Source: Actinomycetes bacterium
GTDB lineage: Bacteria > Actinomycetota > Acidimicrobiia > Acidimicrobiales > RAAP-2
Direction of reading: 5' to 3'
Length of the DNA: 45,462 nt
NCBI GenBank assembly: GCA_021803085.1
Contig: JAJZMD010000207.1
Span: forward strand, 1 to 45,462
The notes below the pieces were generated by a model that was not told where the DNA came from, searched no databases, and was given only the letters and a program-made list of their open reading frames with translations. Within the stretch, counting starts at the first letter, position 1, and every line of letters starts with the position of its first letter. This document shows, piece by piece, positions 23,046 through 34,746 of this stretch. Both the position numbers and the translations under genes were made by a program.

Positions 23046-24977
23046 CTACGCCGAGGAGGACGACCTGCGAAGCATGCGCAGAGAACGGCGGGCGGCGGCG
23101 GCGATCCCCGGGCCGTCGAGTCCGTGCGCGGCCAGGATGTCGTCCGGCCTCCCGTGTGGCAGGTAGGCGGTCGGGAGGCCGCAGGTCGCCACGGTCGCAG
23201 GCGACGGCCCGGCGCCCGACGGCCCGGCGCCGTAGGGTCCGGCGACGTAGGGTCCGGCGACGTACGAGCCGGTGGCGAGCGCTGCGGCCACCGCGGCACC
23301 CACACCCCCCGCAGCGATCCCGTCCTCGGCCGTGACGACGACCTGGTGGGAACCGGCGTCGGCCAGCATCTCGGGGTCGAGCGGGCACGCGACCCGGACG
23401 TCCCAGACGGTCGCCGAGATCCCCTCTGCCCCGAGCTGCCCCGCCGCCTGCTCGCACGCGTCGAGGAGCTTGCCCACGCCGAGGAGGCAGACGGACCCGT
23501 CGCCGGCGACGACGCGACGTGCGCGCAGCCCCGCACCCGTCTCGGTGCAGCGGCGGGCTGGCGTCTTGGGCCAGCGGATGGCCACCGGGCCGCCGTCGTG
23601 GTCCAACGCGGCGTGGAGCATCACCGCGAGCTCCTCGTAGGAGGATGGCGCGAGCACCGTCATCCCGGGCACCTTGGTCAAGAGCGCGAGGTCCAGGGTC
23701 CCGTGGTGGCTGGCGCCGTCGTCACCGGTCACCCCCGCCCTGTCCAGGCAGAAGACGACGGGCAGGCGGTGGAGGCCCACGTCGTGGACCACCTGGTCCC
23801 ACGCGCGGTTGAGGAACGTGGAGTAGACGGCGACCACCGGCCGGAGCCCCCCCATGGCCATCCCGGCAGCGACGGTCACTGCGTGCTGCTCCGCGATCCC
23901 GACGTCGACGAGCCGGTCGCCGTAGCGCTCGGCGAACGGGAGGAGGCCCGTGGGCCCGGTCATCGCTGCGGTGACCGCGACGAGCTCGGGACGCGACGCG
24001 GCTTCGCGCACCATGGCCTCCCCGAACGCCTCCGTGTAGGTCGGGACGCTCCCCTTCGGGACTCTCGGCTGCCCGGTCGCCACGTCGAAGGGGGAGACGT
24101 CGTGGAGGCGCTTCTCCATGTCCAGCTCGGCGGGCGCGTAGTCGCGCCCCTTCACGGTGTGAACGTGCACCACGACGGGGCCGCCGGACGCTGCCGCGCC
24201 GCCGAGGGCTGCCTCGAGGGCGGCGAGATCGTGGCCGTCGACGGGGCCGACGTACGAGAAGCCCAGCGCGCCGAAGAAGGCGGGGGGAGCCGAAGAGGCG
24301 CCGGCCCCGTACCCGGCAGGCGAGCATGCCGTCGTGAGCGGGGAGATCGTCGGTGCGTACGACCGGCCGTTGTCGTTCAGCACGACGACGACGCGGCGAC
24401 GTGCGAACCCGATGTTGCTCAACGCCTCGTAGGCGAGGCCGCCGGTGAGCGCGCCGTCCCCCACCACCGCGACGACGTGGTGGTGCTGGCCGCGTGCGTC
24501 ACGGGCACGAGCGAGGCCGTCTGCGTAGCTGACCCCCGTCGACGCATGGCTGTTCTCGACCAGGTCGTGCGCCGACTCCGCGCGGCTCGGGTAGCCCGAG
24601 AGCCCGCCCGCCTTGCGCAGCCTCGGGAAGCCCTCGGCCCTGCCGGTGACCAGCTTGTGCACGTACGCCTGGTGGCCGGTGTCCCACACGATCGAGTCGG
24701 TCGGAGAGTCGAAGACCCGGTGGAGCGCGATCGAGAGCTCCACCGCGCCGAGGTTCGAGCCGAGGTGTCCGCCCGTCTCCGACACCGAGGACACGAGGAA
24801 GCGCCGGATGTCGGCCGCCAGCCGGCCGAGCGCCGCGTAGTCCATGGCTCGGAGCCGCGCCGGCGTGAGATCACGCAGCGACCCCGAGGCGAGCTCGTCG
24901 ACGGGCGCGCTCTGGCCGTGTGCGTCCCAGTCGGGTTCAGCGCCTGCGCGCAAGCCGATGTCGCGAACCGTCGTCAC
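23046..24977 (-). CDS. dxs: 1-deoxy-D-xylulose-5-phosphate synthase
   Basis: First enzyme of the MEP isoprenoid pathway, condensing pyruvate and glyceraldehyde 3-phosphate with thiamine diphosphate. The 643-residue product has GGHLGSNLGAVELSIALH, the ThDP motif GDGALTGG...LNDNGRSYAPT, YVGPVDGHD and the transketolase second half (RYGDRLVDVGIAEQHAV). Two oddities stand out. The linker between NDNGRSYAPT and YVGPVDGHD is about 30-40 residues shorter than in typical Dxs. Near the C-terminus a 15-bp repeat (23197-23271) inserts a (Y/S)(V/G)AGP series. GTG 24977 lies three bases after the hpnH stop, placing dxs in the hopanoid operon. Confidence 0.93.
   Translation of the reverse strand: MTTVRDIGLRAGAEPDWDAHGQSAPVDELASGSLRDLTPARLRAMDYAALGRLAADIRRFLVSSVSETGGHLGSNLGAVELSIALHRVFDSPTDSIVWDTGHQAYVHKLVTGRAEGFPRLRKAGGLSGYPSRAESAHDLVENSHASTGVSYADGLARARDARGQHHHVVAVVGDGALTGGLAYEALSNIGFARRRVVVVLNDNGRSYAPTISPLTTACSPAGYGAGASSAPPAFFGALGFSYVGPVDGHDLAALEAALGGAAASGGPVVVHVHTVKGRDYAPAELDMEKRLHDVSPFDVATGQPRVPKGSVPTYTEAFGEAMVREAASRPELVAVTAAMTGPTGLLPFAERYGDRLVDVGIAEQHAVTVAAGMAMGGLRPVVAVYSTFLNRAWDQVVHDVGLHRLPVVFCLDRAGVTGDDGASHHGTLDLALLTKVPGMTVLAPSSYEELAVMLHAALDHDGGPVAIRWPKTPARRCTETGAGLRARRVVAGDGSVCLLGVGKLLDACEQAAGQLGAEGISATVWDVRVACPLDPEMLADAGSHQVVVTAEDGIAAGGVGAAVAAALATGSYVAGPYVAGPYGAGPSGAGPSPATVATCGLPTAYLPHGRPDDILAAHGLDGPGIAAAARRSLRMLRRSSSSA
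23197..23271 (-). repeat. 15-bp tandem repeat, 5 units, in dxs
   Basis: Five units of 15 bp (start points 23197, 23212, 23227, 23242, 23257). Units 3 and 4 differ by one base; the outer units are more diverged. They encode a five-residue AGP repeat near the Dxs C-terminus. Confidence 0.85.
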
Positions 24978-24980
24978 GGT

Positions 24981-25988
24981 TCAGTGCGTGTTCACGAGCG
25001 CGCGCAACGATTCGCGCAGCGACCCCATGGAGGCGATCACGGCTGAGGGCTCGTAGCCGCAGTGCGCCATGCAATTCTCGCAGCGCGGGTCCCTCCCTCT
25101 CCCGTACTTGGACCAGTCGGTCGTCTCGACGAGCTCCTTGTAGGTCGATACGTAGCCGTCGGACATCAGGTAGCACGGGCGCTGCCATCCGAGCACCGAA
25201 TAGCTCGGGATGCCCCACGCCGTGCACTGGAAGTCACGCTTGCCCTCGAGGAAATCGAGGAAGAGCGGCGAGTGATTGAGGCGCCACTTCTTGCGCTTGC
25301 CGTCGGAGAACGCCTCTTGGAAGAGCTTGCGCGTCTGCTCGACGCCGAGGAAGTGCTCCTGGTCCGGTGCCTTCGTGTACGCGTACGCGGGGGAGATCAT
25401 CATGGCGTCCACGCTGAGCTCGTCGTTCAGGAAGTCGAGGAGGTCGCGCACCGTCTTGGGCGAGTCGGTGTTGAAGAAGGTCGAGTTGGTCGTCACGCGA
25501 AAGCCGTGGCGCTTGGCCTCGACGATCGCCTCGACCGCCGTGTCGAAGACGCCCTTGCGGTCGACCGCTTCGTCGTGGCGCTCCCGCAGCCCGTCCATGT
25601 GGACGACGAAGGAGAAGTACTGGCTCGGGGTGAACTTCTCGAGCCGCCGGCGGAGGAGGATCGCGTTCGTGCAGAGGTACACGTAGACCTTGCGCTTCAC
25701 GAGAGCCTCCACCATCTCGACGATCTGGGGGTGGAGGAGGGGTTCGCCGCCGGCGATGGACACCATGGGGGTGCCGCTCTCCTCCACGGCGTTCACGACG
25801 TCTTCGACGGAGAGCCGCTTTCGGAGGATGTCCGTCGGGTACTGGATCTTCCCGCAGCCCGGACAGGCGAGGTTGCACGCGAACAGCGGCTCGATCTCCA
25901 CGATCAGCGGGTAGTACTTACGGCCCTTCAGCCGCTGCCGGAGAAGATGAGCTCCGATCTTCATGTTCTGCTTCATGGGAATGGGCAT
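24981..25988 (-). CDS. hpnH: Hopanoid biosynthesis radical SAM protein HpnH (adenosylhopane synthase)
   Basis: Radical SAM enzyme that attaches the 5'-deoxyadenosyl group to diploptene, giving adenosylhopane. The 335-residue product has normal HpnH length. The cluster motif is FACNLACPGCGKI (Cys-x3-Cys-x2-Cys), followed by the SAM-binding GGEP in SIAGGEPLLHPQI. The C-terminus has another Cys cluster (RCENCMAHCGYEP) as in HpnH. The start overlaps the stop of the ispH fusion gene by one base (25988) and dxs follows three bases after its stop. It is strong evidence that this cluster makes extended C35 hopanoids. Confidence 0.94.
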   Translation of the reverse strand: MPIPMKQNMKIGAHLLRQRLKGRKYYPLIVEIEPLFACNLACPGCGKIQYPTDILRKRLSVEDVVNAVEESGTPMVSIAGGEPLLHPQIVEMVEALVKRKVYVYLCTNAILLRRRLEKFTPSQYFSFVVHMDGLRERHDEAVDRKGVFDTAVEAIVEAKRHGFRVTTNSTFFNTDSPKTVRDLLDFLNDELSVDAMMISPAYAYTKAPDQEHFLGVEQTRKLFQEAFSDGKRKKWRLNHSPLFLDFLEGKRDFQCTAWGIPSYSVLGWQRPCYLMSDGYVSTYKELVETTDWSKYGRGRDPRCENCMAHCGYEPSAVIASMGSLRESLRALVNTH

Positions 25989-27595
25989 CAGCGCACCTGT
26001 GAGGGAAGAGAGAACCGGACCGTTTCAGTGGCGACGTTGCGTTCGACGACCTCCGTGGGTCCGAGGGCCGACAGGGCCCCGACCACTTCGGCGACGAGGG
26101 ACTCGGGGGCGGACGCACCAGCGGTGACCCCGACGGTCGCCACACCGTCGAGCCACGCGAGACGGAGCTGGCCGACGTCCTCCACGAGCTCCGCACGGCA
26201 GCCCTCGCGCAGGGCCACCTCGACCAGTCTCGCCGTGTTGGACGAGTTGGAAGAGCCCACCACCAGGAGGAGGTCGCACTCGCGGGCGATCGCCCGCACC
26301 GCGTCCTGGCGGTTCTGCGTCGCGTAGCAGATGTCGTCTGCGCTCGGTCCGACGACGCCGGGAAACCTGCGCCCGAGGGCGCCGAGGATCTCTGCGGTCT
26401 CGTCGGTTGCGAGCGTGGTCTGCGTCAGGTAGGCGACCGGCGCGTCCGGCGCGAGGTCGAGCGCGTCGACCTCCTCGACGCTGGCCACGACGTGGGTCCT
26501 CCCGGGGGCTTCCCCGTAGGTGCCGACCACCTCCTCGTGGTCCTCGTGGCCGACGAGCACGATCTCGAAGCCGCGCTCGGCGAAGCGGCGGGCTTCGTGG
26601 TGCACCTTGGCGACGAGCGGGCAGGTCGCGTCGATCACGGTGAAGCCGTCGCGTGCCCGGGCCTCCTTGCGGACGTCGGGTGCGACTCCGTGGGCGGCGA
26701 GCACCACCGTCGCCCCGTCGGGCACCTCGTCGAGCTCCTCCACGAACACGGCCCCCATCGCGGCGAGCCTCCCGACCACGTGGGCGTTGTGGACGATCTG
26801 GCGCCGCACGTAGACGGGGGCGCCGTAGCGCTCGAGAGAGCGTTCGACGATCTCGATCGCACGCTCGACGCCCGCGCAGAACGACCGCGGCGACGCGAGC
26901 ACCACGCGGCGCGACCGGCACGCGCGGGCCCAGCGCTCGATCGGGTCGCGCACGCCTTCGAGCGAGACCGCTGCGCGGCGCGCGTCCACGGCCGCCATCG
27001 CGCCCGGTCCGGGTGGCTCGCAGACCACGTACACGACGGCGAGCGGCCGGTCGTCGTCCACCAGCGTCGCCACCCATGCCGAATCGTGGTCCAGCACGAG
27101 GGCGCCGACCTCCTCCCCGTACGCTCCACCCGCCTGCGCCGTCACCGGGTCCGCGGAGAAGACCGGGTCCGCGGAGAAGACCGGGTCCGCGGAGAAGACC
27201 GGGTCCGCGGAGAAGACCGGGTCCGCGGAGAAGACCGGGTCCGCGGAGAAGACCGGGTCCGCGGAGAAGACCGGGCCGACGGAGACGAGGTGGCCGTCGT
27301 GGCGAAGCTCGGTCGCGAGCAGCGGTGCGGACGGGAGCCTGCGCACGAGCCGCGGCGCACCCTCGCCCGGCGCCCACAGCTCGCTCGCGACCACGAGCTG
27401 TCCGGGCACGAGGTCGGAGCGGAGCCGCTGCGCGGTGCTGGCGACGGCGACCGCGGAGCACGGCGCCAGGGTGGGCAGGGCCCTCGCGACCTGGTCGGCG
27501 AACGGCGCGTCCTGTGTGCCGGAGAGGACGGTCCCTCCGCCCAGGACGTGGGCGTCCGACGGAGTCCGCGCGAGCACGATCACGTCGTCACCCAT
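25988..27595 (-). CDS. ispH: HpnG-like nucleosidase domain fused to IspH
   Basis: A 535-residue fusion. Residues about 229-535 are 4-hydroxy-3-methylbut-2-enyl diphosphate reductase, the last MEP enzyme. The three cluster cysteines are in FCAGVERA (C240), DATCPLVAKVH and DICYATQNR, with GHEDHEEVVGT and SSNSSNTARL also present. Residues 1-228 resemble the phosphorylase/nucleosidase family of HpnG, which removes adenine from adenosylhopane: LVVASELW, LPSAPLLATELR, SVGPVFSAD, AVVYVVCEPPG. The usual catalytic ME(S) and D(P) positions look replaced (DHDSAW and CEPP), so activity is uncertain. Seven PVFSAD repeats (residues 108-149) interrupt this domain. ATG 27595 overlaps shc by eight bases. Confidence 0.88.
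   Translation of the reverse strand: MGDDVIVLARTPSDAHVLGGGTVLSGTQDAPFADQVARALPTLAPCSAVAVASTAQRLRSDLVPGQLVVASELWAPGEGAPRLVRRLPSAPLLATELRHDGHLVSVGPVFSADPVFSADPVFSADPVFSADPVFSADPVFSADPVFSADPVTAQAGGAYGEEVGALVLDHDSAWVATLVDDDRPLAVVYVVCEPPGPGAMAAVDARRAAVSLEGVRDPIERWARACRSRRVVLASPRSFCAGVERAIEIVERSLERYGAPVYVRRQIVHNAHVVGRLAAMGAVFVEELDEVPDGATVVLAAHGVAPDVRKEARARDGFTVIDATCPLVAKVHHEARRFAERGFEIVLVGHEDHEEVVGTYGEAPGRTHVVASVEEVDALDLAPDAPVAYLTQTTLATDETAEILGALGRRFPGVVGPSADDICYATQNRQDAVRAIARECDLLLVVGSSNSSNTARLVEVALREGCRAELVEDVGQLRLAWLDGVATVGVTAGASAPESLVAEVVGALSALGPTEVVERNVATETVRFSLPSQVR
27149..27274 (-). repeat. 18-bp tandem repeat, 7 exact copies, in the ispH fusion gene
   Basis: Seven identical copies of GTCCGCGGAGAAGACCGG (+ strand) at 27149-27274, encoding seven PVFSAD hexapeptides in frame. 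Lack of any mismatch implies recent or continuing expansion, or homogenisation. Confidence 0.95.
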
Positions 27596-29522
27596 GCGGG
27601 CCGCCTCCGTGCACGAAGCGCCCGAGCGCGGTGACGGGGAACACGAGCCGGTAGAGGTGGTAGTTGATGTAGAAGTCGCCAGGGAACCCGGTCCCGGTGA
27701 ACCACGGCTCGTCCCACGTCCCGTCGCCGCGCTGGGTGGCGCAGAGGAACTCCACGCCGCGGCGCGTCGAGGGGCGGTCGTGCTCGCCCGCTGCGAGCAG
27801 CGTGAGGAGCGCCCACGCCGTCTGCGACGCGGTGGACGCGCCCTTCCCCGACCAGGCGGGGTCGTCGTAGGAACGAAGGTCCTCACCCCACCCGCCGTCG
27901 TCCTGCTGGCAGGCGTCGAGCCACTCGACGGCCCGCCGCACGGCCGGGTGCGTCGCCGGCACGCCGGCGGCGACGAGCGCCGGGACGGCCGCGCCGGTGC
28001 CGTACAGGTAGTTGGCTCCCCAGCGCCCGAACCACGAACCGTCCGGTTCCTGGTTCGCGAGGAGCCATGCAACCCCCCGGCCCATCGCGGCGGCGTCCGC
28101 CGGCCGCCCGGCCGCCTCCAGGGCGGCGAGCATCTCGACGACGTGCGCGGTCACGTCGGCGCTCGGCGGGTCGATGATCTCCCCGAAGTCGCAGGACGGG
28201 AGCTTGCGACAGAGCGTGCGGGTGTTGTCGGCGTCGAAGGCGGCCCAGCCGCCGTCGCGGCACTGCATGCCGAGCACCCATCGCGTGGCGCGCTCGACCG
28301 AGCCCCGATCGTCCTCGTCGCAGCGCAGGAGCGAGAGCACCACCTCGGCCGTGTCGTCGATGTCGGGGTAGTTGTCGTTGGCGAACTCGAACGCCCAGCC
28401 ACCGGGAGCCAGATTCGGGCGGCGCACCCTCCAGTCCCCCTCGACGGTCACCTCCTCGCCGACGAGCCAGCGCGCAGCCACGCGCAAGGACGGGTCGCCG
28501 GGCTCGAGGTCCGCCTCCGCGAGGGCGACGACCGCCAGCGCGGTGTCCCACACCGGAGACTGGCACGCCTCGAGCCGCCGGCCCTTCTCGTCCCGGATCG
28601 TGAACCCCTCGAGGCCTTCGAGCGCGACGCGCAGCACCGGATGTGTGAGCGCGTAGCCACGCAGGTGCAGCGCGATGATCGAGTAGACCCAAGGCGGCTG
28701 GATACCGCCCCAGCCGCCGTCGGCCTCCTGGCGTTCGACGATCCAACGCTCCGCCTCACGAAGCGCGGCCTCGCGCAGCACGCGGACCGGGCGGCGCGCG
28801 TAACGCCGTGCGAGCACGTCCGCGCGCTCCAGCGCGCCCTCCCAGGTGAGAGGCGGGCGCAACGGTCGCGGGGGAAGCCCGCTGCGCAGCTCGTCGACCT
28901 CCACGCCGAGGTCGCGCCGGGGCCGGTACGTGCCCACGATCGTGAGCGCGACGACGGTCTGGCGCGCCCAGCATCCGAAGTCGTAGATGTTGAGCGGCAC
29001 CCACGGCGGAAGGAAGACGAGCTCGGGGGGGAGGACCGGGAGGTCGTCCCACGGCCACTTGCCGAAGAGCGCCAGCCACATCTTCGTGAAGACGCGCGCC
29101 CGCTCGATCCCACCGCGGTCTCGGACGAAGGCGGACGCGGCCGCCATGTGAGGGGCGTCGGGCGGGTCACCGGCGAGCCGGAGCGCCACGTACGCCTCGA
29201 TGGTCGTGGACAGGTCCCCGGGACCGCCGTAGTAGTTGGCCCACGTCCCGTCCTCGCGTTGGTTCGCCCGGATCCAGCGCGCGGACTCCGCGGTGTCCTC
29301 CTCCGTGCGGATCGAGAGGAATTGCCGGAGGAGGAGGTCCTCTGCGTCCATCGAGACGTTCGTCTCGAGCTCGCCCTTCCACCAGCCTTCCTCGTGCTGC
29401 AACCCGAGCAGCGCCTTCGTGGCTCTCGTCAAGGTGGCCGCCGCGTCCACGGCGGGGGAGGTCCGCGCGGCGGCACCTGATACGTGCTGCCCCTCGAGCC
29501 TCCGGTGGTCGATCGCCGTCAT
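27588..29522 (-). CDS. shc: Squalene-hopene cyclase
   Basis: Cyclises squalene to diploptene and diplopterol at the membrane surface. The 644-residue product has the class II cyclase acid motif DIDDTAE (D387, D389, D390) and at least six QW repeats, for example QREDGTW, QEADGGW, QCRDGGW, QEPDGSW, QQDDGGW and QRGDGTW. The C-terminal GFPGDFYINYHLYR is typical. Length is normal. ATG 29522 overlaps the prenyl synthase stop as ATGA, and its end overlaps the ispH fusion by eight bases. Also called hpnF in hopanoid clusters. Confidence 0.96.
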   Translation of the reverse strand: MTAIDHRRLEGQHVSGAAARTSPAVDAAATLTRATKALLGLQHEEGWWKGELETNVSMDAEDLLLRQFLSIRTEEDTAESARWIRANQREDGTWANYYGGPGDLSTTIEAYVALRLAGDPPDAPHMAAASAFVRDRGGIERARVFTKMWLALFGKWPWDDLPVLPPELVFLPPWVPLNIYDFGCWARQTVVALTIVGTYRPRRDLGVEVDELRSGLPPRPLRPPLTWEGALERADVLARRYARRPVRVLREAALREAERWIVERQEADGGWGGIQPPWVYSIIALHLRGYALTHPVLRVALEGLEGFTIRDEKGRRLEACQSPVWDTALAVVALAEADLEPGDPSLRVAARWLVGEEVTVEGDWRVRRPNLAPGGWAFEFANDNYPDIDDTAEVVLSLLRCDEDDRGSVERATRWVLGMQCRDGGWAAFDADNTRTLCRKLPSCDFGEIIDPPSADVTAHVVEMLAALEAAGRPADAAAMGRGVAWLLANQEPDGSWFGRWGANYLYGTGAAVPALVAAGVPATHPAVRRAVEWLDACQQDDGGWGEDLRSYDDPAWSGKGASTASQTAWALLTLLAAGEHDRPSTRRGVEFLCATQRGDGTWDEPWFTGTGFPGDFYINYHLYRLVFPVTALGRFVHGGGPHG

Positions 29523-30541
29523 CGGTCCCTCGCCGTCACGTACCGGGCCACCTCCGACAGCTCCTCCTTCGGCTTGTCCGCGAGCACCACGCGATCGAGC
29601 GCTCCGAGACCCTGCCGGAGGTGCTCGTCGGCGATCGCGGCCACTGCGTCACGCACGCCCGCGCGCTCCAAGAGCCGCGTCGTCCGCTCGATCTCCGTTT
29701 GGTCAGGGGCCCGGGAGAAGATCGAGACGAGCTCGTCCGCCAGAGCGCCGCCCAGGCCGAGCGCGAGCGCGACCGGGAGCGTCTTCTTGCGGGCGAGCAG
29801 GTCGGCCCCGACCGGCTTGCCGGTCGAGGAGGGGTCGCCCCACACCCCGAGAAGGTCGTCGACCGCCTGGAAGGCGATCCCGAGGTGCTCTCCGTACTCC
29901 CCGAGCGCCTCGGCCGTGGCGCCGTCGGCGCCGCCGAGCACCGCGCCGATCGCGCACGCCGCAGAAAGGAGCGCGCCCGTCTTGTCGCGCTCCATCGCCA
30001 GGCACTCCTCGACGGTCACCCGGTCTCTGGTCTCGAAGGCCATGTCGGCCGACTGGCCCGAGATCATCGCCTGGTTGGCGTCCGCGAGCCGTCGAGCCGC
30101 CTCCATGCGCGCCGGCGCCGGCGCCGGCGCGTCGAGGAGCACCTGGATCGCGAGCGCCGCCAGCGCGTCCCCCGCGACGATGGCGACTCCCTCGCCGAAC
30201 TGCGCCCAGACGGTCGGCCGGTGCCGGCGCTCCCGGTCGCCGTCGATGATGTCGTCGTGCAGGAGCGAGTAGTTGTGCACGAGCTCGACGGCAACCGCCC
30301 CGGGAACCGCCTCGCCCTCGGCGCCTCCGACCGCCGCGGCGGCGATGAGGGCGAGCCCCGCGCGCACGTGCTTGCCACCCCCCGCGAGGTGGTGGCGCAC
30401 CGGCTCGTGCAGCGAAGGGTCCAGCCGCTCCACCGCGGCGTCGAGCGCAGGCACGACGAGAGACGACGCCCTGGCCAGCGCGTCGGGCACCTGCGGCGGA
30501 GGGGTCCGGCCGGTGCCGGGCTGCGCGAGGGACGTGGTCAC
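29519..30541 (-). CDS. Polyprenyl synthetase (probably farnesyl or geranylgeranyl diphosphate synthase)
   Basis: Makes the linear prenyl diphosphate for squalene synthesis. The 340-residue product has the first Asp-rich motif in LLHDDIIDGDRERRHRP and the second in FQAVDDLLGVWGD, plus GGGKHVRAGL near the N-terminus. Within a hopanoid operon FPP is the expected product, but chain length cannot be fixed by reading alone. GTG 30541 overlaps the hpnE stop as GTGA, although the frame stays open far upstream inside hpnE. Confidence 0.9.
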   Translation of the reverse strand: MTTSLAQPGTGRTPPPQVPDALARASSLVVPALDAAVERLDPSLHEPVRHHLAGGGKHVRAGLALIAAAAVGGAEGEAVPGAVAVELVHNYSLLHDDIIDGDRERRHRPTVWAQFGEGVAIVAGDALAALAIQVLLDAPAPAPARMEAARRLADANQAMISGQSADMAFETRDRVTVEECLAMERDKTGALLSAACAIGAVLGGADGATAEALGEYGEHLGIAFQAVDDLLGVWGDPSSTGKPVGADLLARKKTLPVALALGLGGALADELVSIFSRAPDQTEIERTTRLLERAGVRDAVAAIADEHLRQGLGALDRVVLADKPKEELSEVARYVTARDR

Positions 30542-31953
30542 GCGGACGCCCCTTGAAGGCGCCGTGCCGGGGCGGGTGAGCCGAGCGAGCCGATCGCGGC
30601 GGCGGCCGCGGCCGTGCCCGAGCGGACGGCGCCCTCCATCGTCGCGGGCCAGCCGGTCGCGCACCACGCGCCGGCGACGAACACGCCGGGGATCCCGGTC
30701 TCCGGCCCGGGTCGGAGCGCGGCGGTGCCGGGCACGCCCCGGAAGGTCGCTGCGTGCTCGCGGGTCACCACGGCGTCGACGATCCCCGCGTCGCGCGCCC
30801 CGGCGAAGAGCTCGCCGAGCGCCTGGTGGAACGTCTTGACCAGGTCGTCGGGGCGTGCACCCGCCCAGGCGGTCGCGTCCGAGAGGGAGACGACGAGGCA
30901 CTGGTGGCCGCTCGCCCGGGGGATGCCCGAGGCCGACGTGTGGTCGAAGACGTACTGCACCGGCGAGGAGACCGCCGCGGCCATCTGCAGGTCGGTCACC
31001 TTCCGGTCGTAGACGAGGTGGACGTTCACGATCGGCGCGCGTCCGAGGACGGACACGTCCCCGAGAGCCCCGGGGGGCAGGACGGCCGGGGCCGCGTCGT
31101 GGGGGAGCGCGACGATGACGGCGTCCGCTTCGACGCGCCGGTGCGGGGTCGCGACAGCCAGCGGGCGGGGGCCGGCGCCGTTGCAGTGCACCGCCTCCGC
31201 CGCGGCGCCGAGCTCGAGCTCGACGCCCGCCGACTCGAGCGCCCGCCTTCCGTGCTCCCCATGGAGCTCCCCGAGCGGTACGGCCGACCAGCCGACGTCG
31301 GCGCCGTCGACGGTGTCGAGGAGCCCGGTGCGGAAGACCTTCGCCGCCAGGGCGAGCGACGCCTCGGCCGATCCGACGTTCACGGTGGGCAGCACCACGA
31401 GGTCCCAGAGGAGGCCGATCGCGCGGCGTGACTGCCCGTGGCGCGCCAGCCAGTCCCCGAAGGTCTCCTCGTCGAGGGCAGGGTCGTCGAGTGTCAGCGC
31501 GCGCAACGCGAGGACCGGCCGGAGCAGGCGCACCCGCTCTGCGAACGGCAGATGGCGGTAGCCGGCGAGCGAGGCGGCCAGGTGGAACGGGGAGGGAAGC
31601 GGGGCGGCCGTCCGCGCGATGCGGGCCCGCCGACCACCCGGCGCGATGACCGGTATGTCGAGCGCTCGCTGCACGCAGACCTTGTCCGCCGCGCCGATGC
31701 GCTCGAGAAACGCGCGGTACGCGGTGCAGCAACGCAGGAACACGTGCTGCCCGTTGTCGAACACGACGCCCTTTCGCTCGAACGACCACGTGAGGCCGCC
31801 GAGGTGCCGGCGCTTCTCGAAGAGCGTGACCTGCGCCCCGGCGTCCCTTGCGGCGAGCGCGGCGGCCATCCCGGCCAGCCCGCCCCCTACCACCGCCACA
31901 CGCGCGCGACCGGTGGGGGTGACACGCGCGCGACCGGGCGCGGGGGCGCTCAC
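30538..31953 (-). CDS. hpnE: Hydroxysqualene dehydroxylase HpnE (FAD-dependent)
   Basis: Final step of the HpnCDE route, reducing hydroxysqualene to squalene. The 471-residue product has the dinucleotide-binding VAVVGGGLAGMAAALAARDAG near its N-terminus, the flavoprotein RRHLGGLTWSFERKG segment, and a C-terminal FAD segment in GIPGVFVAGAWCATGWPATMEGAV. GTG 31953 overlaps the hpnD stop as GTGA. A 24-bp partial duplication near the start repeats GRARV. Order hpnC-hpnD-hpnE is that of known clusters. Confidence 0.93.
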   Translation of the reverse strand: MSAPAPGRARVTPTGRARVAVVGGGLAGMAAALAARDAGAQVTLFEKRRHLGGLTWSFERKGVVFDNGQHVFLRCCTAYRAFLERIGAADKVCVQRALDIPVIAPGGRRARIARTAAPLPSPFHLAASLAGYRHLPFAERVRLLRPVLALRALTLDDPALDEETFGDWLARHGQSRRAIGLLWDLVVLPTVNVGSAEASLALAAKVFRTGLLDTVDGADVGWSAVPLGELHGEHGRRALESAGVELELGAAAEAVHCNGAGPRPLAVATPHRRVEADAVIVALPHDAAPAVLPPGALGDVSVLGRAPIVNVHLVYDRKVTDLQMAAAVSSPVQYVFDHTSASGIPRASGHQCLVVSLSDATAWAGARPDDLVKTFHQALGELFAGARDAGIVDAVVTREHAATFRGVPGTAALRPGPETGIPGVFVAGAWCATGWPATMEGAVRSGTAAAAAAIGSLGSPAPARRLQGASA

Positions 31954-32849
31954 GACGTGCCCTCCACGTGAGCCGGAGCGACGGCACCACGTGGCGAGAC
32001 GAGGCACGACATCGCCACCCAGAGCTTCTCGGACGCCGGCACGGAGACCCTCCCGCGGGTGACGGCCATCGGGTCGCGGGCGATCCGCCTCAGGAGGCGG
32101 TGGTAGATGCCGGCCATCGCGCCCACGCAGGCTTGGCTGCGGCGATCGAGCAGCGGGAGAAGCGTCAGCCCTCTCTCGAACCACTCCTCCGCTCGCGTGC
32201 ACTCGAAGGCGACGAGCCGGCCGAGCGACCCGTCGTCGGAGAGGTCGGGCGGGCTGCCCATTGCGGCCGCGTCCGAGGCGGGCAGGTAGACCCGGCCGCG
32301 TCGCTTGTCCTCCTTCACGTCCCGAAGGATGTTCGTGAGCTGGAGCGCGACGCCGAGGTCGTCCGCGAGCCCGCACGCGCCCGGCGCGCCTGCCGCGCCG
32401 AAGACCGCGAGGGAGAGCCGGCCGATCGATCCCGCGACACGGCGGCAGTACACGACGAGGTCGTCGATCGTGGCGTAGGTCGTCCCTGCCACGTCCATCT
32501 CGCAGCCGTCGACGAGGTCGTCGAACGCGTCCATCGGCAGGTCGTAGCGGGATCTCGCGTCCGCGATCGCGACCAGCACTGGGTCGTTGCCCGGCTCGCC
32601 GTGCGCACCGAGCTCGCCGAGCTCGCCGAGCTGCTTGCGCACGCCGGCGAGCCCCTCGAGCCTGTGCTCGGGCGGCTCGTCGCCGTCGCCGATGTCGTCG
32701 ATACGGCGCGCGAGCGCGTACACCGCAGAGAGCGCGCGGCGCTCGGGTGGATGCAGGAGCCGGATCCCGTAGGCGAAGTTCTTCGCCTCACGCCTCGTGA
32801 TGGCTTCGCACTCGCGGTAGGCGAGCTCGAGGGCTTGCGGGGAGGTCAT
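31950..32849 (-). CDS. hpnD: Presqualene diphosphate synthase HpnD
   Basis: Condenses two FPP into presqualene diphosphate. The 299-residue product belongs to the squalene/phytoene synthase family, with the first Asp motif in ARRIDDIGDGD and the second in LTNILRDVKEDKRRGRVYLP. The position after hpnC and before hpnE, and the NILRDVKED motif form, favour HpnD over phytoene synthase. ATG 32849 overlaps the hpnC stop as ATGA. A short 9-bp repeat encodes GELGELG near residue 75. Confidence 0.92.
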   Translation of the reverse strand: MTSPQALELAYRECEAITRREAKNFAYGIRLLHPPERRALSAVYALARRIDDIGDGDEPPEHRLEGLAGVRKQLGELGELGAHGEPGNDPVLVAIADARSRYDLPMDAFDDLVDGCEMDVAGTTYATIDDLVVYCRRVAGSIGRLSLAVFGAAGAPGACGLADDLGVALQLTNILRDVKEDKRRGRVYLPASDAAAMGSPPDLSDDGSLGRLVAFECTRAEEWFERGLTLLPLLDRRSQACVGAMAGIYHRLLRRIARDPMAVTRGRVSVPASEKLWVAMSCLVSPRGAVAPAHVEGTS

Positions 32850-33760
32850 GAGACCGTCCCGACGGGGGCCGGCCAGGGGCGAGGGATGGTGCGGGTCGAG
32901 ACCGGAGCTGCCAGCACGAGCGCGAGGCGAGCCGCGAACCGCCCGGGGCGCGGGCGGCACCGGTGGGCGAGGACGTCGAAGTCGGCCGCCTCGATCGCGT
33001 CGAGCGCGGCCAGGCCACCTGCCGCGAACGCCGCGACCGCGACACGTGGCGAGAAGGGGAGGCTCGCCGCGAGCGGCACGCCGGAGAAGAGCAGCGCCCT
33101 CGCACGGGCCGACTCGAGCGAGACGACGCGCCGCAGGCTGGGGCCCGCGTGCGCGGCCGCGAGGTCCGACTCGGCGCACCCCTCCGCCTCGAGGTCGGCC
33201 GAAGGCAGGTAGACGCGGTCTTGGGCGAGGTCCTCTGCGACGTCTTGAAGGTGCTCGACCACCTGGAGCCCGGTGCAGACGTCGTCGGAGAGCGCGAGCC
33301 GGTCGGGGGTGGCGGCCCCGAAGATCTCCAGGACGAGGCGGCCGACCGGGTTCGCGGAGAGGCGGCAGTAGCCGACCAGGTCCTCGAACGTCCGGTAGCG
33401 GGTGACCGTCTGGTCCCGGCGGTTCGCCTCGATCAGGTCTCGGAACGGCTGCAGCGGCAGGTCGCGGGCAGCGATCGTCGCGCCGATCCGTCGCATGACG
33501 GGATGCGCGGCCTCGCCGCGTGCCGCACGCTCGAGCTCGTGCTCGAGCCATTCGAGGTGCGCGACGCGGTCGCCGCCGGACTCGTCGCCGATGTCGTCGG
33601 TGAGGCGGGCGAAGCCGTACACCGCCATGAGGTCCGCGCGCACACGCGCCGGGAGCAGCCGCGACGCGACCGGAAAATTCTCGCTCGCGGCCTGCTCGTA
33701 GACGGCCTCCGCGCTCGGCAGGCTGCGGCATTTCGGTGATCCTGTTGTCGTGCAGACCAC
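32846..33760 (-). CDS. hpnC: Hydroxysqualene synthase HpnC
   Basis: Converts presqualene diphosphate to hydroxysqualene. The 304-residue product carries the HpnC hallmark SENFPVASRLLP near residue 27, Asp motif LTDDIGDE and the second motif HLQDVAEDLAQDRVYLP. The start is GTG 33760, set by AAGGAG six bases upstream; the frame is open a further 30 codons, but those lie in the promoter region. First gene of the operon, 56 bases after a good -10 box. Confidence 0.93.
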   Translation of the reverse strand: MVCTTTGSPKCRSLPSAEAVYEQAASENFPVASRLLPARVRADLMAVYGFARLTDDIGDESGGDRVAHLEWLEHELERAARGEAAHPVMRRIGATIAARDLPLQPFRDLIEANRRDQTVTRYRTFEDLVGYCRLSANPVGRLVLEIFGAATPDRLALSDDVCTGLQVVEHLQDVAEDLAQDRVYLPSADLEAEGCAESDLAAAHAGPSLRRVVSLESARARALLFSGVPLAASLPFSPRVAVAAFAAGGLAALDAIEAADFDVLAHRCRPRPGRFAARLALVLAAPVSTRTIPRPWPAPVGTVS

Positions 33761-33806
33761 CGCATGCTCCTTGTTGCGCGCGCCGGGTCGGTGAGGTTCC
33801 ACTGAG

Positions 33807-33828
33807 ATACGTGCAGATATACGTGCAG
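33807..33828. promoter_or_regulatory. Direct repeat overlapping the hopanoid promoter
   Basis: ATACGTGCAG occurs exactly at 33807-33816 and 33819-33828, spaced 12 bp centre to centre. It covers the -10 box, the end of the spacer and the likely start site, where a bound protein would block or shift transcription. Candidate operator. Confidence 0.45.
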
Positions 33829-33844
33829 AGCGGAGCCGGGTCAA
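33816..33844 (-). promoter_or_regulatory. Promoter of the hopanoid operon
   Basis: On the minus strand TTGACC (33844-33839), a 17-base spacer and TATATC (33821-33816) form a housekeeping-type promoter. A start near 33809 would leave a leader of about 50 bases before the hpnC GTG. This is inferred from consensus and position only. Confidence 0.65.
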
Positions 33845-34242
33845 GCGCACGATAGTCGCAGCTTAAGACCAGCGCGGGGAGCCCGTCTCGCCCATCGAAC
33901 GCTCGTATGCGACGCGCGCGCCCACTCGGTGCTCGCCGCATCCTGGACGCCCCGCGCCCACCGGCCCCACCAAAACAAACGATCGTCCGGTCCCCGATTT
34001 TCCTCCTATCTCCGGGCGAGGACGCCCAGGTCCGCGCGGGGGCGGCACCCCCGGTTTCGGGCCCGCGACCTTCGGGTATGCATCGTCTGGGACCGCACTG
34101 GGGGCGGGCACGACCCCTCGGGGCGGGCACGACCAACTCGGGGCACGGCCCCTCGGGCACGGCCCCTCGGGCACGGCCCCTCGGGCACGGCCCCTCGGGG
34201 CGGGCACAGCCTCGAGACGGAAACTGCGGGAGGCAGACGACC
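33845..34242. other. Intergenic region between the hopanoid operon and the HTH gene
   Basis: About 400 bases without a supported gene. It includes the most A+T-rich stretch nearby (about 33967-34016, with CCAAAACAAACGATCG and ATTTTCCTCCTATC), which may hold the HTH gene promoter, and a 14-bp tandem repeat at 34141-34196 with diverged related copies before it. The frame of the HTH gene is open through here, but its Gly-Pro-Ser-Arg repeats come from the DNA repeats. Confidence 0.5.
34141..34196. repeat. 14-bp tandem repeat, 4 exact copies
   Basis: GGGCACGGCCCCTC at 34141-34154, 34155-34168, 34169-34182 and 34183-34196. Diverged forms precede it from about 34105. It ends 46 bases before the HTH gene start. 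Confidence 0.9.
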
Positions 34243-34746
34243 ATGGTGCAGCACCTCATGGACAGCGGGCAGCGGGTACCTGTCGACCGCGAAGAAGCGC
34301 ACGGGCACCCGTCGCGTGGCGCAGCGAAACCGAGGATCGGATCCGGGAGCCGCGACGGTCCCGGCGCCAATGGCCATCGAAGCGGGGCCGGTGGCGATCG
34401 CGGGACACGATACGGCGATGCGACGCTCGGTGCGCTGCTCGCGTTGTCCGACGCGCTGGCCGAGATGAGCAACGACCAGCGGCTGCTCGAACGGCGGCTC
34501 CGGGAGATCCACCGCCAACGGTCCGAGGGACGCGCGTGGCGCGACATCCTGGACGAAGAGGACGAGCCGGGGACGATGCAGGTGGTGAGCCGCATGCTCG
34601 CCGGCCTCGCCAGAGCCAGCGGCAGGCTGCGAAAGGAGCTCGTCGACGCCCTGCGCCGCGAGGGTGTGAGCATCCCGGGCATCGCAAAGCTCTTCGGCGT
34701 GACCCACCAGCGCGTGTCGAACCTCTTGCGGCGATCGGGCGATTGA
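34243..34746 (+). CDS. Helix-turn-helix protein, sigma region 4-like C-terminus
   Basis: A 167-residue protein. The N-terminal 60 residues are Gly/Arg-rich and look disordered. Residues 70-125 form helical sequence (LSDALAEMSNDQRLLERRLR, then GRAWRDILDEEDEPGTM). The C-terminus has a clear helix-turn-helix, VSIPGIAKLFGVTHQRVSNLL, similar to sigma-70 region 4 type domains in small actinobacterial DNA-binding proteins. ATG 34243 has GGGAGG nine bases upstream. It is divergent from the hopanoid operon, so it is a candidate regulator of it; that is inference from position only. Confidence 0.72.
   Translation: MVQHLMDSGQRVPVDREEAHGHPSRGAAKPRIGSGSRDGPGANGHRSGAGGDRGTRYGDATLGALLALSDALAEMSNDQRLLERRLREIHRQRSEGRAWRDILDEEDEPGTMQVVSRMLAGLARASGRLRKELVDALRREGVSIPGIAKLFGVTHQRVSNLLRRSGD

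Follow-up and report, generated by a model that had tools for sequence, protein, structure and literature searches.

An Old HpnG–IspH Fusion in Actinobacterial Hopanoid Operons with an HpnG Half that Looks Like a Relic in One Acidimicrobial Lineage

Introduction

HpnG is described as the putative phosphorylase by which adenosylhopane loses its adenine (PMC12583986). Stand-alone HpnG genes upstream of HpnH in Streptomyces and in several Acidimicrobiia-type MAGs have the operon place, the clade and the profile scores in common with the intact fused domains described below, but they are not joined to IspH, and in those that were read the motifs of the catalytic triad are intact. The closest fusion on record is a UDP/PNP phosphorylase joined to IspH in Frankia QA3, EUN1f and EAN1pec, which Rao et al. 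(2015, PMC4746011) list with the comment that single fusion examples of this kind could be random events. Like the protein analyzed here, the Frankia fusion combines a phosphorylase-superfamily domain with IspH in an actinobacterium, and its name, "UDP-IspH", suggests that the order of the domains is probably the same; however, it was reported as a one-genus oddity, is not called HpnG and is not connected with hopanoids, the stem "hopan" being absent from the main text of the report. Going by its published description, it is presumably identical with the fusion treated here. Beyond this report, a literature search with thin coverage of subscription papers returned no mention of an HpnG–IspH fusion. 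PMC4746011 also describes IspH-RPS1 and IspH-UbiA, which resemble our case in that IspH is combined with another domain: IspH-UbiA likewise links isoprenoid steps, but its UbiA is located C-terminally of IspH, whereas the partner considered here is N-terminal and apparently decaying.

Here we analyze such a fusion in a 45,462-nucleotide stretch of DNA from an actinobacterium of the order Acidimicrobiales, referred to in the following as the window. An earlier note, based on the sequence of the window alone, had described an HpnG-like nucleosidase domain fused to a complete IspH within a hopanoid operon.

Results and Discussion

The Fusion Gene and its Operon

The features of the locus are compiled in Table 1. 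The minus strand is the true coding strand of the fusion gene, for which the earlier note had given the correct coordinates.

Table 1. Features of the hopanoid locus in the window (positions in the window; residues are those of the respective frame).
Feature	Position	Strand	Evidence or remark
Dxs	23046..24977	-	TIGR00204 545.9 bits, cut-off 465.95
HpnH, adenosyl-hopene transferase	24981..25988	-	TIGR03470 516.4 bits, cut-off 225.05
HpnG-IspH fusion gene, 535 aa	25988..27595	-	one stop-free frame
IspH domain, residues 231-535, with C240, C325, C423	25991..26905	-	PF02401 E 3e-91; alignment to solved IspH structures E 6e-94
HpnG-derived nucleosidase domain, residues 1-228	26912..27595	-
E193 at catalytic Asp position (D197)	27017..27019	-	alignments and coordinates
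D171 at second catalytic Glu position (E174)	27083..27085	-	alignments and coordinates
18-bp tandem repeat, 7.9 copies, seven VFSADP units (residues 109-150) in HpnG-derived domain	27144..27285	-	TRF score 268
D14 at first catalytic Glu position (E12, E. coli MTAN)	27554..27556	-	alignments and coordinates
Squalene-hopene cyclase (SHC)	27588..29522	-	TIGR01507 738.8 bits, cut-off 431.1
Frame with polyprenyl diphosphate synthase in last third (residues ~503-823)	29519..31990	-	PF00348 E 2.5e-54, NCBIfam; frame start putative
Frame with HpnE (residues 160-595)	30538..32376	-	TIGR03467 374.1 bits, cut-off 283.05
Frame with HpnD-like protein (residues 629-894)	31950..34682	-	TIGR03465 270.4 bits, slightly below cut-off 278.6; frame start putative
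HpnC	32846..33850	-	TIGR03464 308.4 bits, cut-off 250.45

Read along this strand, the operon comprises HpnC, the HpnD-like protein, HpnE, polyprenyl diphosphate synthase, SHC, the HpnG–IspH fusion, HpnH and Dxs, which bears out the hopanoid setting proposed before: the fusion sits between SHC and HpnH, with Hpn genes and Dxs around it. The ATG of the fusion gene overlaps the stop codon of SHC (ATGGGTGA), and its own TGA overlaps the ATG of HpnH. A chance open frame is ruled out by the retention of the N-terminal domain in frame in 33 aligned fused proteins together with its confidently predicted, known fold; an assembly artefact is ruled out as well, given that the identical HpnG/IspH join is found across many separate assemblies.

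The locus might instead encode two proteins, with IspH starting internally and the upstream part either untranslated or made as a separate short product: suitable codons are available in frame (ATG at residue 200, GTG at residues 203, 215, 231 and 232), and the operon IspH of one relative, G149, manages with a short leader only. We nevertheless regard this arrangement as extremely unlikely, as a clear ribosome site rich in purines is not evident by eye in the 18 bases ahead of the internal start codons and 20 intact members of the family conserve both halves within one frame.

The IspH Half

The C-terminal half matches PF02401 over residues 231–508 with 305.9 bits (cut-off 24.5) and passes TIGR00216, the IspH model, with 312 bits against a cut-off of 187.85. 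Apart from C240, C325 and C423 it contains H269, H302, H353, E355, T393, N450 and S495; the three cluster cysteines and these histidine, glutamate, threonine, asparagine and serine residues are what we take to be the active-site set of IspH. Judged by sequence, the IspH half is thus intact, which confirms the complete IspH with all three cluster cysteines that the earlier note had recognized, and it is probably active as an HMBPP reductase.

The genome of the window harbors a second IspH of the housekeeping type (contig C34, 44582–45499; locus L002), which shares 48% identity with the operon copy. A tree of 50 IspH domains places 35 operon copies and 15 housekeeping copies on opposite sides of a branch with 100/100 support; among these housekeeping rows, only the copy from the window's own genome stems from a genome known to have the operon. 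A second IspH was not seen in the assemblies G002, G005 and G012, which are 89–91% complete.

The N-Terminal Half Derives from HpnG

The structure prediction that the earlier note had suggested for the N-terminal half was of high confidence overall and confirmed a phosphorylase-superfamily (PNP/MTAN) fold; low pLDDT values are found at residues 115–144. Sequence identity to the E. coli MTA/SAH nucleosidase (MTAN, 1z5n) amounts to only ~12%, and the catalytic residues of that enzyme are replaced in the window. In relatives L004 and L005 the repeat within this domain has another unit (VVSVGP) and different copy numbers.

When residues 1–228 were searched alone against Pfam and NCBIfam, no match was obtained, the HpnG model TIGR03468 included, and the cut-off of this model (187.1) was reached by none of 41 relatives. 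However, two Streptomyces HpnG proteins (L107:5351-5992 and L161:5354-5992) also stay below it with 72.2 and 77.5 bits, so that the cut-off appears unsuited to actinobacteria; annotation pipelines may consequently overlook actinobacterial HpnG, which the curated model misses. In a nucleosidase tree, from which 16 loci were dropped as their motif pattern matched no frame there, 17 HpnG rows including the window are split from 20 MTAN-like rows by a branch with 100/100 support. The N-domain hence groups with the stand-alone, hpnH-linked HpnG proteins and apart from other nucleosidases, and its gene adjoins hpnH in a hopanoid operon. The fusion partner of IspH is therefore, as far as sequence comparison reaches, HpnG-derived. 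The earlier note had named two outcomes that would speak against this assignment, namely a lack of profile similarity in residues 1–228 and homologues without the N-terminal half. Both occurred literally, the first for the domain searched alone and the second in G149, which has IspH only; the homology nonetheless stands by way of the family profile, the fold and the intermediates among the relatives.

Distribution of the Fusion

Among 41 relatives HpnH was detected in 17, and in 16 of these the fusion is the next gene upstream; in the 17th, G023, a contig end cuts the locus. A family sample of 150 genomes contained 31 with HpnH, 30 of which carry the fusion (G285 as a contig-edge fragment only; G023 is again the cut locus), and a class sample of 247 genomes contained seven: here the fusion occurs in three (the window's own genome, G039 and G265), a stand-alone HpnG in three (G206, G214 and G274) and IspH alone in G149. 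We further examined the best 80 of at least 579 named HpnH loci, in which L089, L091, L092 and L097 correspond to the records G005, G292, G381 and G274. In six of these 80, IspH comes with a detectable N-domain, and one of the six is labelled Pseudonocardiales; another 72, mostly from Streptomyces, match the N-domain but not IspH; Aciditerrimonas ferrireducens MV1 shows IspH but no N-domain match; and in L094, which begins at HpnH, neither IspH nor the N-domain was found. The search for the same fusion in relatives, as envisaged in the earlier note, has thus located it in nearly all HpnH genomes of the family sample and in other families, and the fusion is old. A phosphorylase–IspH protein that in 2015 was only a Frankia oddity can now probably be assigned a partner, HpnG, a place in hopanoid operons, and a spread and history.

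Loss of the Catalytic Triad

Measured against Glu12, Glu174 and Asp197, the triad of E. coli MTAN, the N-domain of the window lacks the Glu-Glu-Asp triad that is expected of HpnG: the substitution of the catalytic acids, suspected previously, is real and affects all three positions (Table 1). The full triad is present in 20 of the 33 aligned fused proteins, or in 20 of 34 if Aciditerrimonas, too short to align, is included, and is altered in the other 14; the count omits G285 (L196, the contig-edge fragment), the contig-cut L096, and L089, L091 and L092 as duplicate records. That the fusion brings together the opening and closing parts of the pathway, as formerly proposed, is true of the polypeptide; a working two-step enzyme is plausible for those 20 members that retain the triad and less so for the protein of the window. 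None of the 11 fused proteins read in the window's genus has an intact triad: the equivalent of Glu174 is absent from all of them, being replaced by aspartate in eight and by alanine, histidine and glutamine in one each, while the other two residues are retained by four of the 11.

The series continues outside the genus. G308 (g5) has Q, E and D at the three positions; in G019 (g8), whose domain is shortened, they read A, D and a gap from a deletion that spans one catalytic site. Aciditerrimonas has ~160 residues ahead of IspH, provided that the GTG overlapping the SHC stop is the start, and these give no profile match; in G149 (L178) only a leader of ~15 residues separates SHC from an IspH without any HpnG domain. 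In the IspH tree Aciditerrimonas groups with the intact genus g7 (98/93) and apart from g1 + g8 (99/96), so that decay happened at least twice. G149 is placed near the base on a branch that is not resolved, and its IspH-only gene represents either a loss or the older state. As a whole, the fusion series, which runs from intact over damaged to nearly absent domains, shows step by step how a catalytic domain caught within a needed gene is lost.

Selection on the Two Halves

We estimated dN/dS by the NG86 method, using for the window's subclade the three pairs formed by the window and its two nearest relatives. In these pairs the N-domain yields 0.66–0.81 on 172 codons without the repeat, or 0.70–1.01 with an alternative choice of columns, and IspH yields 0.09–0.25. 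The N-domain of L006–L008 is still constrained with a dN/dS of ~0.25, and the medians for genera with an intact triad are 0.12 (g150, one pair), 0.16 (g9), 0.28 (g7, range 0.13–0.44) and 0.35 (g148, one pair). Fisher tests of nonsynonymous versus synonymous changes in N-domain versus IspH gave p = 0.034, 0.0042 and 0.0025 for the three pairs of the window's subclade, 0.0052, 0.032 and 0.044 for L006–L008 and 0.00013 for L009–L010, values that are not independent because close pairs share branches. Throughout the genus the N-domain is looser than IspH, but near neutrality is confined to the window's subclade; that it is still constrained elsewhere in the genus argues against a long-dead domain there.

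Based on the fusion itself, its HpnG homology, the intact IspH residues, the loss of the triad, the relaxed selection and the decay series in relatives, all read from sequence, we consider it likely that the gene arose long ago by fusion of hpnG with a second, hopanoid-dedicated ispH, and that in it IspH probably works and the HpnG half is dead or dying. Within an operon that holds Dxs, the squalene-making enzymes, SHC and HpnH, the IspH half would supply IPP and DMAPP. The HpnG half would retain its phosphorylase-type fold but, with the triad lost and the sequence drifting, would be inactive; its retention in frame would be due to its position behind the translation start, which is coupled to the SHC stop. 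In the window's lineage this half looks like a relic, a term which the earlier note had already used and which the decay series and the near-neutral dN/dS of the subclade support. Against a dead HpnG half stand a domain that still has 228 residues, is stop-free and models well, as well as the four genus members with two triad residues left and the constraint in L006–L008.

Acids occupy all three triad positions of the window (D, D, E), so that weak nucleosidase activity is possible. If the HpnG half worked with these exchanged acids, the fusion would make C5 units and later strip adenine from the HpnH product, a reading to which the well-predicted fold and the continued adjacency to HpnH would lend themselves. 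We deem it unlikely, however: at the triad positions, close relatives carry Gly, Ala, Arg, Gln or His or show gaps, dN/dS is near neutral in the window's subclade, and a repeat has expanded inside the domain.

Alternatively, the N-domain might persist as a pseudoenzyme, with adenosylhopane, adenine or a partner as its ligand, and regulate or tether IspH, in line with the open frame in all 11 fused genes read in the genus and with the high-confidence model. We judge this very unlikely. The "regulatory or binding" role that the earlier note had coupled to the relic finds no support in the face of the near-neutral change in the window's subclade, the variable, slipping 18-bp repeat, the shortened G019 domain with its catalytic-site deletion, the stub in Aciditerrimonas and the absence of the domain from G149, all of which argue against a conserved second job.

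Candidates for Adenine Removal

If the HpnG half is dead or dying, as we favor, adenine removal would have passed to another nucleosidase: perhaps, in the window's genus, an MTAN-like protein encoded on contig C270 and, in Aciditerrimonas, a second HpnG beside hpnB, both of which we name as candidates for the present enzyme. A separate nucleosidase outside the operon occurs in 13/13 genomes of the window's genus, the C270 protein being that of the window's genome, and the MET and SD motifs of this type are present in the 12 that were read and in the fragment from G002. Nucleosidases of the C270 type are likewise present in g8, g5 and G149 and, beyond these, in genomes without detected HpnH, so that a general enzyme is probable. 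Among the other carriers searched, g7, g13 and g3 showed only weaker nucleosidases or ones of other kinds, and G039 yielded nothing apart from the fused gene.

Aciditerrimonas breaks this pattern linking HpnG decay with an MTAN-like nucleosidase. A. ferrireducens MV1 has a second, stand-alone HpnG (L236:5662-7560), divergent from an HpnB gene (404.8 bits, cut-off 379.25); it carries all three motif residues, scores 82–85 bits with the HpnG profile but gives no match to TIGR03468, and falls on the HpnG side of the tree on a long branch. For the window's genus, neither a second HpnG nor HpnB was found in 1,478,097 bases of G003 (100 stretches; ~57% of ~2.6 Mb).

An HpnO-like aminotransferase, which would use ribosylhopane, was recognized at 52–60% to Streptomyces, with other aminotransferases in the same searches at 33–46%. 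It is kept in all 12 other genomes of the window's genus, in Aciditerrimonas and in G149; at this level the window's own assembly (best match 41%) and the HpnH-bearing genomes G039, G214 and that of L151 gave no hit, and it is present in two genomes without detected HpnH, G015 and G022. In G015 (L213:4438-6950) the aminotransferase adjoins an HpnA-type epimerase (TIGR03466 387 bits, above the cut-off). Overall, the HpnO-like aminotransferase speaks weakly for continued ribosylhopane formation. For a fusion with two activities, its presence in the genus counts in favor and the lack of a match in the window's own assembly against.

The same distribution bears on the possibility that the pathway ends at adenosylhopane and no nucleosidase is needed. 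The loss of the triad in 11/11 genus members would follow naturally, and adenosylhopane can, according to PMC12583986, be the sole composite hopanoid found in alphaproteobacteria (Azospirillum brasilense). Such an end point appears rather unlikely to us in view of the retained HpnO-like aminotransferase and of the second HpnG kept by Aciditerrimonas. As regards the gene itself it is compatible with our preferred explanation, a working IspH with a dead or dying HpnG half, and differs on the pathway only.

More tentatively, and with considerable doubt, we propose that the HpnG half died in several lineages of these actinobacteria, at least two times independently, after a relocated HpnG or a housekeeping nucleosidase took over or after the step was dropped with adenosylhopane as the end product; the stub trapped by IspH would then mark actinobacteria with a different route to the hopanoid side chain. 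If our preferred explanation is right, an hpnG-like region in a genome is no proof that ribosylhopane is formed, which bears on the reading of hopanoid biomarkers.

The window's own genome further encodes purine nucleoside phosphorylases on C171 and C58 and an MTAP-like nucleosidase on C231, which by type are weak candidates for replacing HpnG. Contigs C158 and C231 (L036 and L035) carry near-identical copies of a cluster with the MTAP-like nucleosidase (C231 was the copy scanned), accompanied by radical-SAM-like and glycosyltransferase-like frames recognized by eye; the cluster may resemble an arsenosugar cluster.
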